Below are positions 46,595-53,735 of a DNA stretch of 64,000 bases, one piece after another; positions within the stretch are counted from its first letter, which is position 1, and each line of letters opens with the position of its first letter. The translations under genes were made by a program, and so were the position numbers. Origin of the DNA: Hydrogenophaga sp. (GTDB taxonomy: Bacteria > Pseudomonadota > Gammaproteobacteria > Burkholderiales > Burkholderiaceae_C); NCBI GenBank assembly GCA_016790705.1, contig JAEUOT010000055.1:21094-85093 (forward strand). Direction: 5' to 3'. The notes under the pieces were generated by a model. It made no database searches. It had not been told where the DNA came from and saw nothing but the letters and a program-made list of their open reading frames with translations.

Positions 46595-47269
46595 TCAGCG
46601 ATAGACGACGTCGTCGGCGGCTGCACGTGTGAATTCGTAGATGCCGGTCCACACCAGCTCGCCGGACTCCAGATCGGTCATCTCGAACGAGATCTGTGAG
46701 TAGCGCTGGATCAGCCCCGTCTTGGGACTGCGGCTGTCCAGGGAGGTGATCTTTCCGGACAAGCGGTAGTCGGCCCCTTCCGGCGCCTTGGTCAGACCGG
46801 TTGTCCCGGTCCCGACTGTCCCCGTGCGCTTGAGTTCGCGCTCCTGCTCGACCATCGCGGCGTTCTGGCGATTGATGAACAGCATCTTCGATTTCGCCGC
46901 CCGGTTGAGGTTGACCAGAAGACGCTGGGTGATCATGTTCTTGTTGATCGCCTGCGTGCTCTCGTTGGCAAAGTAGGCGGCGTCGATGATGACGCGGGGA
47001 CGTTTGGGGTTGTTGGAGAAGACCGGCTCCTGCAACATGTCCCGCATCATCTGGTCGGTCATGGCCACGATGTCCTGGCCCTCGACCCCGACGCCGGACA
47101 CCGGCCCCTTGCGCGAGGGATCGACATCCACCGAGGCCACGCCGGCGGCGTTGGGCGGATTGCTCACGCAGGCGACCAGCAGCGACGCCAGCGCGGCGCC
47201 GGTCAGCGTCTTCACCGCGCGCAAGGCTCGCGGCACCGACCCGCTGGTTGGACTGGCTTCGAATTCCAT
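46595..47269 (-). CDS. LpoB-like outer-membrane lipoprotein (PBP activator family)
   Basis: 224 residues from ATG 47269 (ATG 47281 possible). Lipobox SLLVACVSN, then VIIDAAYFANESTQAINKNM and ADYRLSGKITSLD, typical of COG3417/LpoB. LpoB activates PBP1b in enterobacteria; activity here is inferred. First of the four-gene set. Confidence 0.82.
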   Translation of the reverse strand: MEFEASPTSGSVPRALRAVKTLTGAALASLLVACVSNPPNAAGVASVDVDPSRKGPVSGVGVEGQDIVAMTDQMMRDMLQEPVFSNNPKRPRVIIDAAYFANESTQAINKNMITQRLLVNLNRAAKSKMLFINRQNAAMVEQERELKRTGTVGTGTTGLTKAPEGADYRLSGKITSLDSRSPKTGLIQRYSQISFEMTDLESGELVWTGIYEFTRAAADDVVYR

Positions 47270-47449
47270 GACGACCTCCATTCGATTCGGGCGCAAGGCC
47301 CTGAAGAAAACACCCGCTGCCGCAGTGCCTTGCAACGCTGCAAACGTCACCGCCTGACAGGTCTTCAGGTTCTCAGCATTGGAGGAGGAATGCCTCACCC
47401 GTTCGGGTGGGAGGTGAGCGCCGGATGGCAGCGATCCGGCGCGGCGCGC

Positions 47450-48502
47450 TCAGCGCTTGCTGGCCTTGATCAGCACCGGACCCACATCGCGTCGGTCCAT
47501 CACGTCAAGACGATGGAAGACGTCCTTGACGTGGGTCGCGGCCGTGTTCACCGATACGCACAGCTCGCGCGCGATCTGCAGGTTCGTCAGGCCGCGGGCC
47601 ACCAGCACCGCCACATCGCTCTGCCTCGGCGACAGCCCCAGCTTGGCGGCGCCTTCGGTGAGGCGCAGCGGCTCCGCAGACAGGCGGGACACGATGAGGC
47701 CGCGTGCCATCTGCCCCTGCTCGCCCAGCAACTGGTGGCGACGGAACGCGAAACTGCCCCACGCGGTGTCGGTGCGGTGCAGCGCTTGCGGCGATGCATC
47801 GATGGCATCCAGCACCGCGGCCACAAAGCGGGGCAATGAACGGGTCTCATGCTGGGCGGTGGCGGGCGTGATCGGGTTGCCTTCCGCAAGCCGGATCAGG
47901 CGCCCCCAGGACTCGTCCGAGTACACCACCTGGCCACAGGCATCAAACACCGCCATGCCCTCCTCGACCGTCTGTTCGAGGACGCCGGTCGAAGAGGCAG
48001 GGCTGGGGACGCCAAGCGCCTCCCCGAGGTAGTGCAGCACCTCCTGCAACAGCTCCTCGTCGCGCGCGGTGAACGCCGGCCCTTTGTCGCCCCGGTACAG
48101 ACTGAGCTGCCCGATGACCCGCGAACCCGAGCGCACGATCGCGTACAGGAAATGCTCGACGCCAAGGGGTTGCAGCACGTCGCGGTAGTAGTCGTTCGCG
48201 CGCTCCTCCGGCGTGACGCTGCGACGACTGACGGGACGCACCGCAGCCACGCGCGCCAGGTAGTGGAGGCGAAACTGACTGTCGTTGTACCGGTCGTGGT
48301 AGCGCGCCTGCACCGCCGGCGGCAGCATGCGTTCGGCGTAGAGATTGGTGATGCTGCCGCGCTCGTCGCAGAAGAAGAAGCCGGCATGCTCGGCCTTGAC
48401 CACCTGCCGCAACACCGGCAACAGCGACGGCAGCACCACGGGACCGGGCAGCCCGAGATGGCAGAGCTGGCGCAAGGTAACGCGGGCGGTGGCCTGGGTC
48501 AT
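47450..48502 (-). CDS. LuxR-type transcriptional regulator with GAF-like sensor part
   Basis: 350 residues. Helix-turn-helix at the C terminus (LSPRQSDVAVLVARGLTNLQIARELCVSVNTAATHVKDV). The N-terminal two thirds looks like GAF/PAS sensor folds (FFFCDERGSITNLY, then EGMAVFDACGQVVYSDESW). ATG 48502 overlaps the subtilase stop by 4 bases, so it is coupled to the subtilase/haloperoxidase genes and probably regulates them. Confidence 0.87.
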   Translation of the reverse strand: MTQATARVTLRQLCHLGLPGPVVLPSLLPVLRQVVKAEHAGFFFCDERGSITNLYAERMLPPAVQARYHDRYNDSQFRLHYLARVAAVRPVSRRSVTPEERANDYYRDVLQPLGVEHFLYAIVRSGSRVIGQLSLYRGDKGPAFTARDEELLQEVLHYLGEALGVPSPASSTGVLEQTVEEGMAVFDACGQVVYSDESWGRLIRLAEGNPITPATAQHETRSLPRFVAAVLDAIDASPQALHRTDTAWGSFAFRRHQLLGEQGQMARGLIVSRLSAEPLRLTEGAAKLGLSPRQSDVAVLVARGLTNLQIARELCVSVNTAATHVKDVFHRLDVMDRRDVGPVLIKASKR

Positions 48503-50616
48503 GGCAGCAGCTTCACGCCTTTCCTGGGATCCGTGCTGCCCGCGACTTCACGGCGCACGGCCGAGACCCGCGGCGTTTTCGCCAGACGATTGGCGATCCA
48601 GCGTGTGGCCTGCGGAGCCGCCAGGCTGGTCCCGTTGGCGCGGACCACCATGCCGCTCTGGCTGCCGCTGACGCGGATGCCCGGTCGTGCAACGCCCTGA
48701 TCCGCCAACGCCGACAGCTCCGGCCCGGCCGCGCTGTGGCCATCGGCGCTGTGGCCCTCGGCGCTGTAGCGAGACACCCAGGCACCCTCTGCGTCTGCGC
48801 CCACGTCCTGCAAGGCGCCGACACGGAAGACGCGCGAACCTGTGGCCACATCGGACAGCGTGTCTTCATCGCACAAGGTCTCGCCGGCCGCGGCGACCAG
48901 GTGGGCGGCCTGGTCACGCCTCGCACCGACCGTGGTGTCGTCGCGCTCCACATAGGCGTCGATGACAAGGCTTTGATCCAACCGGTTGGTGATCCGGACG
49001 GTCCAGCGACCCGACGCGGCGAAGGGCAGACGGCTGTGGGCCTGGGTAGGGGCGATGACCAGCAGCGCCATCGATCGCTGCGTGCTTTGAGGCACCTTCG
49101 GCTGAAGGTAGAGCCCCGCAAGAGGGATCGCTGGCGGATGTCCGCCAACCGCAGGGTAGAGGACGCCTGTGCCAGGAACCCCGCTGAACTCCTGACCATC
49201 CGGAGCGGTCACGGTGATCGCCGGAAACTGGCCTTCCTCGAGGGGCACGGTTTTCCCGTCGACCCGTCGATGCATCCAGATTTCCAGGTAGGTCTCTTCC
49301 TGTTTGTCGGGCGGCGCGAACAGGGTCAGCGTGTGCTCTTGGCCGGCCGTGTGCAGATCGAAACGCGCATGCAGCCCGCCGGGCTGCGCGTGCGGCAACT
49401 TGCGTTGATCGACGCTGTCCCCGTCGGGTGCACGGCGCGTGCCGTGGCTGTTGCCGGCGGCCAGGACGATGGCCAGACGATTGCGATGGGCAACCACCAG
49501 CTCATTGATGGCCGATTCCAGCATGCTCGTTCCGTCGTGGGCGCCCGCAAGGGCCCCGTAGCTGAGGTTGATCGCCACGGGAGCAGCCTTTCCGTCCTCG
49601 GCCAGGTACTGCGCGGCGCGGCTCATGATGTAGCGAAGCCCATCCAGCGCGTTGACCGCCATCCAGCGCCCGCTGTGATCATTGGTGTGGGTGGTCGGAA
49701 AGGTCACACCGATGACGGGGGCCTCCGAAGCGACGTCAAGGAGAGGTTCACCGATCGAATCGCGTTCGTCGTCGGGGTTCGACCAGCGCGGCACAGGCGC
49801 GTGTTTCGCACCGGCGAGCAGCGGCAGGATCATGCCGCCGTGGGACACCCGGGACTGCAAAGGCGAGACCCGACCGGCCGACTCCAGCGCAGCGTAGATG
49901 GCGTCCTCGTCGCCGTCGAACTGCTGAATGAGCCCGGTCATCGCGCTGGCGCTCAACTCCGCGCCGTAGGAAAACCGATCCGGCACCGCCCAGGCACCCT
50001 GATCGGGTCGGCGCCCCTGGTCCCACACTGCGACCACCCGGGAGCCGTCCCCTTTCCTTTCTCCCCGCAAGGCCGCATGCGCGAACGGGATGGCGTCACC
50101 GAGCAGCCCGAGCACCACCGGCGTTGTCTGAGGGTCGCCTTGCTTCCCGGCACCGGGCGCTTCATGGAGGGGTTTTTCCGGGGAGTCTTTCCACGGATAG
50201 TTTGGCTGCCCGACCTGAACGCGTATGACGTAGCGATTGGCCAGCACCGCCTGGACCGCCTGGGCCACGATGCCCCAGTCAACATCCTCGCCCTTCCGGG
50301 AAGTCTCCACGCTCATGCGCAGCGTGATGAACCTGGATGTAGACCCGCACGGCATGAACTGAAGATAGGCATCCGGCATGGTGAGCTGGATTTCAGGGGG
50401 TACGCCCTTCCTTAAATCAGTATTTGCATCAACCGCAGTTCTCAAAGGAGCGATGACGCTCAACACTGCATATTCAAAAGACAGCTTGATTTCCTCGGTC
50501 ACCGGCGCGTTGAGCTCCACCAGGAAATCGACGATGCGCGTCTGACGAAAGCGGCGCAGTTTCGTATGCAGGGCCCATTGCCCGTAGGGATCGACAGAGG
50601 GTGTGGTGTTAGCCAT
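48499..50616 (-). CDS. S8-family serine peptidase (subtilase), no signal peptide
   Basis: 705 residues from ATG 50616. The catalytic triad is Asp199 (VVAVWDQG), His259 (SRVSHGG) and Ser664 (ANGTSLAAPQ). The long gap between His and Ser holds a beta-rich insert (about 410-560). No signal peptide or propeptide is apparent, so it is cytoplasmic or uses another exit. 14 bases after the haloperoxidase-type gene in transcription order and coupled to the LuxR gene. Substrate unknown. Confidence 0.88.
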   Translation of the reverse strand: MANTTPSVDPYGQWALHTKLRRFRQTRIVDFLVELNAPVTEEIKLSFEYAVLSVIAPLRTAVDANTDLRKGVPPEIQLTMPDAYLQFMPCGSTSRFITLRMSVETSRKGEDVDWGIVAQAVQAVLANRYVIRVQVGQPNYPWKDSPEKPLHEAPGAGKQGDPQTTPVVLGLLGDAIPFAHAALRGERKGDGSRVVAVWDQGRRPDQGAWAVPDRFSYGAELSASAMTGLIQQFDGDEDAIYAALESAGRVSPLQSRVSHGGMILPLLAGAKHAPVPRWSNPDDERDSIGEPLLDVASEAPVIGVTFPTTHTNDHSGRWMAVNALDGLRYIMSRAAQYLAEDGKAAPVAINLSYGALAGAHDGTSMLESAINELVVAHRNRLAIVLAAGNSHGTRRAPDGDSVDQRKLPHAQPGGLHARFDLHTAGQEHTLTLFAPPDKQEETYLEIWMHRRVDGKTVPLEEGQFPAITVTAPDGQEFSGVPGTGVLYPAVGGHPPAIPLAGLYLQPKVPQSTQRSMALLVIAPTQAHSRLPFAASGRWTVRITNRLDQSLVIDAYVERDDTTVGARRDQAAHLVAAAGETLCDEDTLSDVATGSRVFRVGALQDVGADAEGAWVSRYSAEGHSADGHSAAGPELSALADQGVARPGIRVSGSQSGMVVRANGTSLAAPQATRWIANRLAKTPRVSAVRREVAGSTDPRKGVKLLP

Positions 50617-50630
50617 GGCAACGCTCCCAG

Positions 50631-51785
50631 TCACCGCCACTCGTCTTTGACCTTGGTCCACAACTGCCCGAGCAAGCGGCTCTTGCAGGCAGGTTGTGAT
50701 GGCGCCGTGGCACTCCCGCTGAAATACGCCGGGACACCGTGAGGGCCATTCATGGGTTCGTTCTTGTTGAACCCTTTCACCACGACGTCGTCAGTGGCGT
50801 TGATGCCTTGCCCATCGAACTTCCGACAGATCCAGCCGGACGCCCCACCCGCGTGCAGGCGTGCCAGCAGGTATTCCGCCAGCGTCTCACCGACCATGCG
50901 TCCGGCCGTCGCATCGATCGGGAAGTGAACGCCGGCAACCACGCGGTTGTTGGCGATGCGTGCAGCGAGTCGCTGCAGTTGCTTGTCCAGTTCGCAGCCG
51001 ACCTTCTCCCCGCTGAGCCGCTGGAACAGACGCGCCAGAAGAAACGCCTCCACCGCGTGCCCGCTGGGAAATGCGGAGAAGCGCCCGGCGTTGATGATCG
51101 GCTGGATGCCGGGTGAATAGGCCACCGGGCGGGGACAGGCCAGGTGGTGCTTGATCGGCTGATTGACCCACTGCGCGAGCGCCAGCGCCAGTTGCACCAG
51201 CTCCAGCGTGAAACGGTGATCGTTGGGATTCAGGTCCAGGATGGCCCCCCAGTACTGCAGGGGCACCGCCAACTGGGTCAGGACCTCCTGGGCCCGTTCG
51301 GCACGCAACTCGCTCCAGTCGTTGACCAGATTCGTTTGCGCCCGGAAGACCTCGACCGTCGGTCGAATCACCTCCACCACCGGTTGGGTTGTCGCAGCGC
51401 CGGCCTGCCAGTCCACGTGCTCGATCATTGCGGACTGTTTCACACTGCTTGAGGAGATCCTCAGCGAGCCCACCAGCTCGACCAGCAGGTTCTGGTGTCG
51501 CACGTCCGCCGACCACAGCCAGATGTTCTTGGGCTTGCCCACCTCAGGCAGCTCCTGGGGCCCGCGCGACCAGAGGATTGCGTCAGCACCGTGCGGCTGC
51601 ATCACCGCATCCCGATTGGTGATCAGCCCCCAGGACACGGCGGGATCGGCGCCCGGCATGAGCGTGGCGGCCGCGTAGCCCTGATATCCCTGGTACCCCT
51701 GATACCCCTGGTAGCCCTGATAGCCTTGGTAACCCTGATACCCCTGATAGCCTTGGTAACCCTGCAGATGGTTGAGCATGCTCAT
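50631..51785 (-). CDS. PAP2/vanadium-haloperoxidase-type enzyme with N-terminal (Gln-Gly-Tyr)10
   Basis: 384 residues. AGGAGG lies 7 bases before ATG 51785. Residues 8-37 are ten Gln-Gly-Tyr units. The C-terminal half has the complete PAP2/haloperoxidase pocket: Lys212-x6-Arg219-Pro, PSGH with His243, Arg281-x5-His287 and Asp291. The pocket serves vanadate-dependent halogenation or phosphate-ester hydrolysis. Sequence alone cannot tell which, although the length and soluble character favour the haloperoxidase-like group. No signal peptide. Its neighbours are a subtilase and a cyclase-homology protein. Confidence 0.85.
   Translation of the reverse strand: MSMLNHLQGYQGYQGYQGYQGYQGYQGYQGYQGYQGYAAATLMPGADPAVSWGLITNRDAVMQPHGADAILWSRGPQELPEVGKPKNIWLWSADVRHQNLLVELVGSLRISSSSVKQSAMIEHVDWQAGAATTQPVVEVIRPTVEVFRAQTNLVNDWSELRAERAQEVLTQLAVPLQYWGAILDLNPNDHRFTLELVQLALALAQWVNQPIKHHLACPRPVAYSPGIQPIINAGRFSAFPSGHAVEAFLLARLFQRLSGEKVGCELDKQLQRLAARIANNRVVAGVHFPIDATAGRMVGETLAEYLLARLHAGGASGWICRKFDGQGINATDDVVVKGFNKNEPMNGPHGVPAYFSGSATAPSQPACKSRLLGQLWTKVKDEWR
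51675..51764 (-). repeat. 90-base tandem repeat encoding (QGY)10
   Basis: Ten 9-base units. Codons vary silently: Gln as CAG or CAA, Gly as GGC, GGT, GGA or GGG, and Tyr as TAC or TAT, while the peptide is invariant. Confidence 0.95.
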
Positions 51786-51821
51786 CGGTCGCCTCCTGTG
51801 AAGTGAAGTGGTTGGACTCGG

Positions 51822-53735
51822 TCAGTCTTCGGGCAGTCCGCTGCGGCGCAAGGCCTCGGCAAACGCGTCATGAAGCGGGTGGTTGCCGGGCGCCCGCGCC
51901 CTGAAGAGACTCACGCTGGCGTGAGGCTCCACACACAGCAGGTCCTCGATCGCCTGCCGTGCGCGCTGCGGGTCGCCCAGGCGATACGCGGCAATGCACA
52001 GCGTCCGGTACGAGGATCCGTGTGATCGGTTCTTGCGGATCGCCAGTTCCGCCAGCGACACGGCGCGCTCCAGGTCACCCGCAGCCAGCGAGGCCGATGC
52101 GCTGAGCGAACAATAGAAGTCGTAGACGGGATCCAGTGGGCTCAGGCCCAGCGCCAGTTCGCTCGATCGCAAGGCCGCCTCCGACTGATCGAGAAAGCCG
52201 TGCGCGACCGCCTTCATCAGCCAGGCCAGCGACTCGTTCGGGTTGTTCTCCAGCGCCTGGTCGTAGTACCGGCTGGCCTCCTGGGGATCGGCGCGCACGC
52301 CGGCCATCACCGATCCGGCCATGGTGAGCGCCAGCGACGATGTGGGGTCACGGTCCAGCGCGCGCTGGCTGTACTCGAAGGCCTGGGCGGCGTCCCGGGT
52401 GCGATCGCCGCTCCAGCCCTGCACGACGTTGAACACGTGCCAGCGCGCCATCCAGGCCAGCGGATCGGGGTGCCGAGGCGCCCGCTCGGCCAGGGTCTCG
52501 AGCATCTGCCGGGCACGCTCGAATTCGTCCCGGCTGAAGCGGTGCAGGGCGGCCACCGCCTGGAGGTACAGCGTGTGGCTGGCCATGTTCGGCAGGGCCG
52601 CAGCGGCCCCTGCCGCGCGCTGCTCAAGCGTCACGATCCGACCGCCGAGCTCCTGCACGAGTTGCCCGTACAGCTCGCTGTCAGGCGACAGCACCTCCGC
52701 CACAGAGGCTCTGCGGGTGCAGTGGGCCACCGCTTCTCCGGCGCCCCGCCGCCACAACTGCATGCTCAGCCGCACGCCGGCATCCCCCAGGTCCTCCACC
52801 TCGCCTTGCAGCAGGTAGTCGGCGCCGAGCCGGCGGTAGACCAGATCCGGGTCGAGCGTGCGCCCCGACCAGGCCAGGGTCGACTGGCCGCTGAACACGT
52901 GAACCACCGGCAAGGTGCTCATGCGGCGAAGGAGTTGGTCGTGCACCACCTCGGCCACGCCGATGGCATGAGGGCCCGACGACGCGTGGCCCGACGGCTG
53001 CAACGGCAGCAAGGCCAGCGCCGGCTTGGTCCGCAGCCGACGGGCCACGGCCTGCTGCAGCGAACCCGGCAGAGGAGCGGCCGACGAGTGCCCCAGGCTG
53101 AACAGGCGCACGGTGCCGTCGACGTGCTTGAGGTGACAGTCACCCAGATCAAGCACCTCGGCATCGACGCCCACAATCAGCAGGTCACGCACCGGCGCCG
53201 TCACCAGTGTCTGGCCCACACCGGCCAGCGCGGCGACCCGGGCAGCGAGATTGACGCCCTGACCGTACACCCCCTGGTCGTCACACCAGACCTGGGCGTG
53301 ATGAACACCCGCCCGCAGTTGCAGCGGCGACTGCCCGGACGGCACCGGCGCCTGCGCCGCCAGCCGGTGCAACGCAAGCACACACGCACAGGCCTCGTGC
53401 GGCCGGTCGAACCGTATCAGCAATCCGTCGCCGCGCCGCTCGATCAGGTCGCCGCGATGAAGCGCGACGAGGCCCGCCGCGTCGGCCATGAATCGCCGCA
53501 GGCGGTGGACCCAGCCCGCCTCGTCCGCATGCGCATGGAGCACCGACTCGACAATGTCGACGAACGCCAGCGTGGCCCAGGTCGCCGCGGGCTCATCCTG
53601 GCCGGTCGACACAGCCGCCACCTCAGCCGATCCGGACAATGCCGGGCCCAGCCGGCGACCGCCCGCGCGCCCACCGGCGCCCAGGGGGCGGTGACGGACA
53701 AGGCAGCGGCTGCGGCCACAGGTTGGAAGACGCAT
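51822..53735 (-). CDS. Class III nucleotide-cyclase homology domain fused to TPR repeats
   Basis: Up to 637 residues; an internal GTG at 53612 may be the true start because the first 41 residues are Arg-rich and featureless. Cyclase-like domain: AFVDIVES, then LIERRGDGLLIRFDRP and GVYGQGVNLAARVAALAG. TPR-like helices follow (LAWMARWHVFNVVQGW to SYRTLCIAAYRLGD). Resembles signalling proteins that couple cyclase-fold sensing to protein binding; catalysis is unproven. It precedes the haloperoxidase-type gene by 36 bases. Confidence 0.8.
   Translation of the reverse strand: MRLPTCGRSRCLVRHRPLGAGGRAGGRRLGPALSGSAEVAAVSTGQDEPAATWATLAFVDIVESVLHAHADEAGWVHRLRRFMADAAGLVALHRGDLIERRGDGLLIRFDRPHEACACVLALHRLAAQAPVPSGQSPLQLRAGVHHAQVWCDDQGVYGQGVNLAARVAALAGVGQTLVTAPVRDLLIVGVDAEVLDLGDCHLKHVDGTVRLFSLGHSSAAPLPGSLQQAVARRLRTKPALALLPLQPSGHASSGPHAIGVAEVVHDQLLRRMSTLPVVHVFSGQSTLAWSGRTLDPDLVYRRLGADYLLQGEVEDLGDAGVRLSMQLWRRGAGEAVAHCTRRASVAEVLSPDSELYGQLVQELGGRIVTLEQRAAGAAAALPNMASHTLYLQAVAALHRFSRDEFERARQMLETLAERAPRHPDPLAWMARWHVFNVVQGWSGDRTRDAAQAFEYSQRALDRDPTSSLALTMAGSVMAGVRADPQEASRYYDQALENNPNESLAWLMKAVAHGFLDQSEAALRSSELALGLSPLDPVYDFYCSLSASASLAAGDLERAVSLAELAIRKNRSHGSSYRTLCIAAYRLGDPQRARQAIEDLLCVEPHASVSLFRARAPGNHPLHDAFAEALRRSGLPED

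Follow-up and report, generated by a model that had tools for sequence, protein, structure and literature searches.

The length of a homogeneous repeat word on a PAP2-superfamily enzyme covaries with the TPR domain of a neighbouring cyclase-like sensor

Introduction

Why should an enzyme of the PAP2 superfamily begin with ten identical copies of a tripeptide? This question is raised by a 64,000-nucleotide stretch of DNA from Hydrogenophaga sp. (GCA_016790705.1, contig JAEUOT010000055.1, positions 21,094 to 85,093), hereafter the window, in which the gene for such an enzyme (50631..51785, minus strand; 384 aa) is located between the gene for a sensor with cyclase-like, TolB-like and TPR regions (51822..53735, minus strand; 637 aa with the called start codon, which is uncertain) and the gene for an S8 (subtilase-like) peptidase (48499..50616, minus strand; 705 aa). 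The original prediction, made from the sequence of this locus, described the repeat as a Tyr-rich tail of the enzyme that might serve either as a substrate or as a binding or phase-separating tag. The PAP2 protein indeed contains exactly ten QGY units, but these occupy residues 8-37 (51675..51764, minus strand) directly behind the N-terminal MSMLNHL and hence form a head. The array yields a score of 27, the highest score in 1220 shuffled proteins being 6, and its unit is encoded by six different DNA spellings. Here, we report that the three genes form a conserved cassette, that the head remains pure within each protein while its word differs between loci, that the word length covaries with the TPR domain of the sensor, and that both the protease fold and the output domain of the sensor are exchanged. 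The reading that we favour, with some reservation, is that sensor, enzyme, and protease form a cytoplasmic cassette and that the TPR superhelix of the sensor would dock on the homogeneous PAP2 head.

Results

Relatives of the operon were searched for with the PAP2 core devoid of its head as query (E 1e-10 or better), which revealed a homologue in 59 of the 399 genomes of the window's family, its own genome included. Sixty of the 62 listed places constitute the first set; the window's own place and one on a 3-kb contig were left out. A same-strand sensor homologue is present upstream of the PAP2 gene in 59 of these 60 loci. An S8 homologue follows downstream in 51 of them, and sensor, headed PAP2 and S8 genes occur together in 51 loci. 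Independent occurrence of the genes in relatives, which would have spoken against the predicted operon, is contradicted by this co-occurrence. Three of the nine loci without an S8 gene (L046, L079, and L081) end nearby on short contigs.

A family profile (A1) built from 53 sequences was used for wider genome searches and matched 5 of 369 genomes of the class, 32 of 398 genomes of the phylum, and 11 of 198 genomes of a further family of the phylum, as well as 52 of 67 genomes of the window genus and 21 of 87 of a second genus, g100. The loci fetched comprise the places found by these searches apart from a partial one in the window genus (G1179) and the weaker ones from the class, phylum, and further-family searches. 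Plasmid-borne examples were found in Roseibium aggregatum (NZ_CP045635.1), Phaeobacter gallaeciensis, Bosea, Caballeronia, and Rhizobium, and the annotation of NZ_CP045635.1 lists a cyclase domain protein, a PAP2 protein, and an S8 peptidase consecutively. In a second round of 25 loci (20 from the phylum and class searches and the five plasmids) we observed a same-strand sensor homologue in 20 and an S8 homologue likewise in 20, two of the latter on the opposite strand. All 72 loci of a third round (47 from the window genus, 20 from genus g100, and five from the further family) contain the PAP2 and S8 genes, and 66 a same-strand sensor homologue.

The heads of these homologues were then tallied, with an array qualifying at a score of 12. 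Among 153 homologues with a readable head (L226, L229 (N-masked), L081, L096, and L098 were skipped), 140 carry a homogeneous array, and these arrays comprise 72 distinct words, such as QGY, QGD, GGL, SGGY, AGR, DAR, and ESW. The unit is three residues long in 84 arrays and four in 47, the arrays span 15-54 residues, and 8 of the 1204 units deviate. Gly is present in 127 of the 140 arrays, Ser in 64, Ala in 50, and Tyr in 16, and no residue is common to all. Lys and Cys are absent from the units, in contrast to Arg, Asp, and Glu. Within the window genus alone the words include SGGV, SGGT, SGGM, SGGA, SGGI, SGGL, SGGY, SGGF, and SAGV besides SGA, SGV, SGY, GGF, GGI, GGM, GGV, GGY, GGS, GGT, and QGY. 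Moreover, in all six genomes in which at least two arrayed PAP2 copies were read (G299, G096, G849, G1078, G1181, and G1225; locus pairs L076/L084, L052/L085, L149/L150, L155/L156, L177/L215, and L219/L224), each copy carries a different word. In the window's own genome, which is 84.75% complete, (QGY)3 was found in the array itself and in no second protein. Four further loci retrieved by a protein-pattern search of genome contigs were discarded as unrelated by eye, being collagen-like or YQG-rich and devoid of PAP2.

At the DNA level, differences from the consensus codons amount to 1757 synonymous (0.523 per site) versus 12 replacement changes (0.0014 per site). Because the array finder favours pure stretches, the array definition was loosened twice, which raised the replacement rate to 0.0033 and 0.0164 per site with 21 and 82 deviant units, respectively; under the loosest definition the synonymous rate is 0.509 as compared with 0.0164 for replacements. 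In addition, the likeness of codon spelling between units was determined for the first 76 arrays (L081, L096, and L098 were left out) and was about that of independent draws from the codon use of the gene (mean z -0.16), with 11 arrays above 2 and 30 below -1. Since the codons vary freely while the units hardly deviate, these data indicate that selection keeps each array self-identical, whatever its word. Neutral slippage at a tolerant N-terminus could also create such repeats, and some arrays are indeed almost identical in DNA and young-looking: z exceeds 3 in L041, L047, L054, L057, L058, L070, and L163, and the arrays of L054, L057, L058, and L070 (z 3.6 to 7.3) look newly made. However, over all arrays the synonymous differences far exceed the replacements, which renders a purely neutral origin highly improbable. 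We rather read the pattern as a sequence of events in which a new word would expand by slippage and fill the array, and would then be held by selection at the protein level while its codons drift.

The diversity of the words also bears on the idea that the enzyme would halogenate or cross-link the Tyr-rich repeat, with the subtilase as the trimming protease. In the window ten Tyr residues do precede the PAP2 active site, but the enzyme core is conserved regardless of the word (QGI, QGD, GGL, DAR, and others). Because Tyr occurs in just 16 of 140 arrays, a tyrosine substrate is excluded as the general role of the head, and we give this proposal hardly any credence. A collagen-like protein was likewise rejected: the Pfam Collagen model yields 21.2 bits against a cut-off of 27.2, and words of length 4 to 10 as well as Gly-free words (DAR, ESW, and TSM) exclude a collagen helix.

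Which of the neighbouring proteins follows the word? For this purpose, partial Mantel tests were performed in which the head word was compared with the sequence identity of one region, all other regions being controlled for. The first loci used for these tests were 63 that have an array as well as the sensor, PAP2, and S8 genes, of which 59 were retained (the first set of the covariation analysis). The head period covaried with the TPR domain of the sensor (residues 383-636; 51828..52589, minus strand; recognized by Pfam TPR models) with a partial r of 0.650, which was reached by none of 500 permutations, as compared with -0.167 for the cyclase part, -0.107 for TolB, -0.094 and -0.069 for S8, and -0.027 for the PAP2 core. 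Unit similarity yielded a partial r of 0.599 with the TPR domain. When sliding windows were employed, the signal in the sensor was about zero up to residue 360 and 0.27 to 0.57 from residue 380 onward, i.e. it begins at residues 350-390, where the TPR domain starts. In PAP2 the values were 0.04 and 0.01 at residues 102-172, 0.25 and 0.23 at residues 162-232, and -0.18 to 0.09 beyond residue 232; in S8 they ranged from -0.20 to 0.17. On FastTree trees, the period changes between 3 and 4 once on the TPR tree, three times on that of S8, four times on that of the PAP2 core, and six times on that of cyclase plus TolB, and among the 30 sensor positions most informative for telling period 3 from period 4, 26 are located in the TPR domain.

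The same is apparent within one clade, comprising L044 (GGL) and L057 (GGW) on the one hand and L054 (AGGY), L056 (GAGF), and L058 (SGGY) on the other. Over all ten pairs the PAP2 cores are 63-82%, the S8 proteins 67-82%, and the cyclase parts 68-82% identical; the TPR blocks share 30-53% across the period boundary and 57-72% within it.

Replication was performed with 110 non-redundant usable loci, 53 of them newly fetched. The partial r for TPR was 0.416 (period) and 0.424 (unit similarity) in all 110 loci (0/200 permutations), 0.422 and 0.533 in the window genus (without the window, plus four earlier loci; 0/300), and 0.411 and 0.577 in genus g100 (plus three earlier loci; 0/300). In the 53 newly fetched loci the values were 0.225 (period) and 0.367 (unit similarity; 0/300), and thus weaker than in the first set. 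The period was also predicted from the nearest neighbour for 60 of the 72 new loci, the rest being devoid of a qualifying or readable array or of one of the genes. Where the predictions disagreed, TPR was right in 6 of 7 cases against the PAP2 core, in 5 of 6 against the cyclase part, and in both cases against TolB. Finally, TPR positions expected on the concave face (positions 2, 5, 9, 12, and 13 of helix A usually face the groove) are richer in period information than all others (p 0.006).

Several observations weigh against a TPR domain docked on the head. In the first set, unit similarity also yielded a value of 0.078 with the PAP2 core (32/500 permutations), and among period-3 arrays alone the values for TPR (0.275) and PAP2 core (0.226) lie close together. 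In the clade described above the TolB part falls across the period boundary as well (38-44% versus 57-73% within). The newly fetched loci show signals for TolB (0.198 for period, 0/300; 0.141 for unit similarity) and the PAP2 core (0.053 for period; 0.120 for unit similarity, 0/300), and genus g100 for S8cat (0.243, 0/300, and 0.253) and TolB (0.222, 2/300). The accuracy of the nearest-neighbour prediction was similar throughout (TPR 46/60, S8 47/60, TolB 44/60, cyclase 42/59, and PAP2 core 39/58), and in the single disagreement between TPR and S8 the latter was right. Compared with the rest of helix A, the advantage of the concave positions shrinks to p 0.061; shifting the register by +4 gives an equally good result. 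A side-chain code for aromatic words was not seen in the TPR domain, which holds only 4 of the 20 top positions. As aromatic words are thus untied to TPR positions, the TPR domain seems to track the length of the word more than its side chain, and docking does not account for the uniform side chain of the words. Moreover, PAP2 residues 38-101, directly behind the head, lie outside the aligned core of the covariation test, 13 of the 153 homologues are devoid of a qualifying array (five of them, L170, L217, L221, L222, and L233, have a short one), and a single-sequence fold of the PAP2 protein reached a mean predicted local distance difference test score (pLDDT) of 36.4 and was not used further. 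S8 as a partner of the word was also considered; it is unsupported in the first set, and the new loci give a mixed picture.

Since TPR domain and head adjoin in the DNA, part of the signal could stem from recombination that moves both together. Taken to its extreme, the TPR segment and the head would be exchanged as one block without the two proteins ever touching. The upstream gene ends with the segment for the TPR domain at its 3′-end, and the next one starts with that for the head at its 5′-end, the two genes being 14-104 bases apart in most loci; besides, the FastTree topologies of the cassette parts conflict, and among the newly fetched loci some signal is seen for TolB, which adjoins TPR. 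However, PAP2 residues 102-172 are free of signal although they are encoded some 195-405 bases behind the head and thus no farther away than the far half of the TPR domain, and in the first set the signal ends at the border of the TPR domain. Moreover, hitch-hiking offers no reason for the purity of the arrays, and we consider it an unlikely explanation by itself.

Likewise, the head might be a segment for self-assembly or condensate formation, with identical words serving homotypic stacking, in line with the low-complexity Gly/Ser/Tyr/Phe words of many members. Such a function does not predict a covariation specific for the TPR domain, the arrays are short, as given above, and charged ones such as (AGR)11, (QGD)8, and (DAR)7 exist, which together make it a distinctly improbable role.

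As to the enzyme itself, membership in the PAP2 superfamily is supported by PF01569 (4.9e-12; 46.2 bits, cut-off 27.2) and by the presence of the three catalytic motifs, K-x6-RP, PSGH, and R-x5-H-x3-D. Residues K212, R219, P220, P240, G242, H243, N280, R281, H287, and D291 are invariant in all 56 aligned homologues (56 of 61; L040, L047, L081, L096, and L098 were dropped). The complete PAP2/vanadium-haloperoxidase pocket that had been predicted is shared with the whole PAP2 superfamily, including acid phosphatases. When compared with structures, the family profile matched the soluble acid phosphatase 7f17 (2.5e-23) better than the vanadium bromoperoxidase 1qi9 (6.8e-11), suggesting that the enzyme is more likely a phosphatase than a haloperoxidase. 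In L040, the PAP2 protein carries besides its QGS head a C-terminal (PA)18 run (residues 430-466) that is almost identical in DNA.

The S8 peptidase of the window is recognized by PF00082 (1.3e-9; 38.3 bits, cut-off 21.8). Of the intact Asp/His/Ser triad claimed by the original prediction, His259 and Ser664 are present, and Asn389 is kept as well; the canonical Asp column, however, is occupied by Gly173, with Asp174 one residue on. In the alignment this column holds Asp in 68 of 72 sequences; the His is retained in 71 of them and the Ser in all 72. The exceptions are the Gly of the window, a gap in L071, and Glu in L039 (QGI) and L041 (QGD), two relatives of the window; L040 (QGS) and L042 (QGA) have Asp. 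Because of the Gly173, the window's S8 protein may be a weak or altered protease or a binder.

Where S8 is missing, another protease can take its place. A gene for Peptidase_A4, a fold unrelated to S8, directly follows the PAP2 gene in L161 (3.3e-23), L159 (1.3e-27), and L095 (4.4e-9), and in L164 a divergent S8 (5e-22) is located behind PAP2; the gene downstream of PAP2 in L093 has no Pfam match. Arrays are still present in loci without a family-type S8 (L159, L161, L162, L164, and L095), including L162 without a visible protease. In L163, from the same class as the window genome, a distant PAP2 protein has (SM)10 within its N-terminal region and is followed by a gene that by eye resembles a methyltransferase and by a second gene with an HExxH-type HEIAHLLGRGHPG stretch; this metalloprotease-like motif was recognized by eye only, and Pfam shows no peptidase family there.

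Given that S8 adjoins PAP2 in 51 of 60 loci and Peptidase_A4 does so in three loci without S8, a head-trimming protease is possible. This arrangement could also mean that the head is a multi-copy precursor from which the protease would free identical tri- or tetrapeptides, to be read by the TPR sensor in the manner of the RRNPP receptors, which are cytoplasmic TPR sensors reading short peptides. The homogeneous, lineage-specific words, the protease gene that adjoins the array even with a swapped fold, and the covariation of the TPR sensor with the word are in line with this scheme. However, the carrier in the window has neither a signal peptide nor a transmembrane-like segment, the putative precursor is joined to a conserved enzyme whose active site is invariant, the S8 sequence shows no covariation with the word in the first set, and the window's S8 is devoid of the canonical Asp. 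In our opinion, a precursor role is thus improbable.

The cyclase-like domain of the sensor (residues 55-203; 53127..53573, minus strand) yields 21.8 bits with Guanylate_cyc (PF00211), just under the cut-off of 21.9. Asp60, Asp103, Asn162, and Arg166 are present in the window and kept in 63, 64, 64, and 69 of 80 aligned sensors, respectively; the former two would correspond to the metal-binding Asp pair, and the latter two to the Asn and Arg, of a class III nucleotide cyclase. The middle region presumably resembles TolB. The TPR repeats are supported by TPR_14 (38.2 bits, cut-off 23.5). In the sensor of the Phaeobacter locus, L100, a winged helix (Trans_reg_C, 9e-15) takes the place of the cyclase part. 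Thus, the slots of the cassette are exchangeable with respect to the protease fold and the output domain of the sensor, and the TPR domain and the headed PAP2 are its steadiest parts. In L156, L158, and L160 the PAP2 genes, with the words QGN, AGR, and QQT, lie near oppositely transcribed TPR- or winged-helix-type regulators, an arrangement without the problem of adjacency.

The operon of the window is completed by a gene for a GAF-LuxR regulator (47450..48502, minus strand; PF00196 and PF01590). As predicted, the four genes are tightly packed on the minus strand, with gaps of 36 and 14 bases followed by a 4-base overlap. They had been assigned to positions 50631..53735, which hold the sensor and PAP2 genes; the S8 and LuxR genes fall outside. 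The LuxR gene, which had been counted as part of the operon, was found in just 2 of the 60 fetched loci in addition to the window, and is thus an optional fourth gene outside the core. A gene for an LpoB-like lipoprotein (46595-47398) adjoins the operon and is ordinary. By hydropathy, neither PAP2 nor S8 has a signal peptide, as had been stated, or a transmembrane-like segment, and the same holds for the sensor of the window. In the fetched set, at least one transmembrane-like segment was found in 9 of 60 PAP2, 7 of 51 S8, and 8 of 59 sensor proteins. The products of the three window genes are therefore taken as cytoplasmic.

A known anti-phage defence system was rejected, as the four window genes gave weak partial matches only with the PADLOC models: GajA with PAP2 (0.015), IetS with S8 (0.0052), and two CARF models (2.7e-5 and 1.3e-4) with the helix-turn-helix part of LuxR; the sensor had no match at all. 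A phage-borne module was rejected as well: none of 50,697 phage records matched the PAP2 protein, and viral contigs yielded three partial matches.

Discussion

Taken together, the head must be self-identical but may spell many words, and the length of the word tracks a single domain of a neighbouring protein. The simplest account of this is that the TPR domain docks on the head. Physical binding between the two is likely in our view, and the alternative of the original prediction, that the repeat is a binding tag, gains support. As the array consists of identical words, the TPR groove could sit on the head in any register, and several sensors might bind side by side. Sensors assembled in this way would pair their cyclase domains or, in the variants, their winged-helix DNA-binding domains, and thereby link the state of the enzyme to second-messenger signalling or transcription. 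Since both class III cyclases and winged-helix regulators generally work as pairs, clustering would be a natural switch; we put forward the clustering of sensors on the head tentatively. With similar caution we suggest that the neighbouring protease could cut the head, and might thus end or reset the complex. Word and TPR domain would be replaced together, giving rise to a private pair for each lineage and for each copy within a genome.

These considerations lead to a more general, and speculative, proposal of re-codable recognition. An arbitrary repeated word would serve as a private address for the TPR domain of a partner from the same operon, and the multivalent strip would cluster the output domains, as a switch of simple and general design. 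Words born by slippage would sweep the array and then be frozen at the protein level, and many orthogonal pairs may have evolved in this way.

The usual roles of low-complexity sequences can hardly explain a selection that insists on self-identity of the head but tolerates many words. If the TPR domain reads the word, the cassettes would provide many natural orthogonal pairs of solenoid and peptide, of use for a recognition code and for insulated circuits. They would also offer a handle on the cyclase-TolB-TPR sensors, a common but little understood architecture in Proteobacteria.

In agreement with the original prediction, which knew of no system of this composition, we found no description of the cassette or its arrays in the open-access literature, nor of a natural family with many exchangeable repeat words. 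The cassette is made of known domain families. With the soluble PAP2 acid phosphatases, and more distantly the vanadium bromoperoxidases, its enzyme shares the three catalytic motifs. It differs from these by its repeat head, by the approximately 160 residues between the head and the Pfam domain, by its operon setting, and by an NR instead of SR in the last motif. The defence pair IetAS has a subtilase in common with the cassette, the weak PADLOC match of IetS being confined to S8, but none of the four genes encodes an IetA-like ATPase. Like the RRNPP systems, the cassette places a cytoplasmic TPR sensor beside a source of short peptides and a protease; unlike these, it has no secreted propeptide, and its words sit on an enzyme without a signal peptide.

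The proposed pair of TPR domain and head is reminiscent of collagen prolyl 4-hydroxylase, in which the peptide-substrate-binding domain, a TPR fold, binds (PPG)n, a tripeptide-repeat chain, in its groove (PMC12433258). There, the repeat is the substrate of the enzyme and of one fixed, proline-rich kind (PMC12433258), and no change of the word from lineage to lineage was found to be described. Designed repeat proteins that bind tripeptide-repeat peptides, and armadillo proteins that pair with Lys/Arg-rich peptides, likewise combine an alpha-solenoid with a peptide of repeating sequence, as proposed here (PMC10115654). Those pairs are engineered or confined to basic peptides (PMC10115654), in contrast to the cassette, which is natural and displays 72 words on an enzyme that shares an operon with the sensor.

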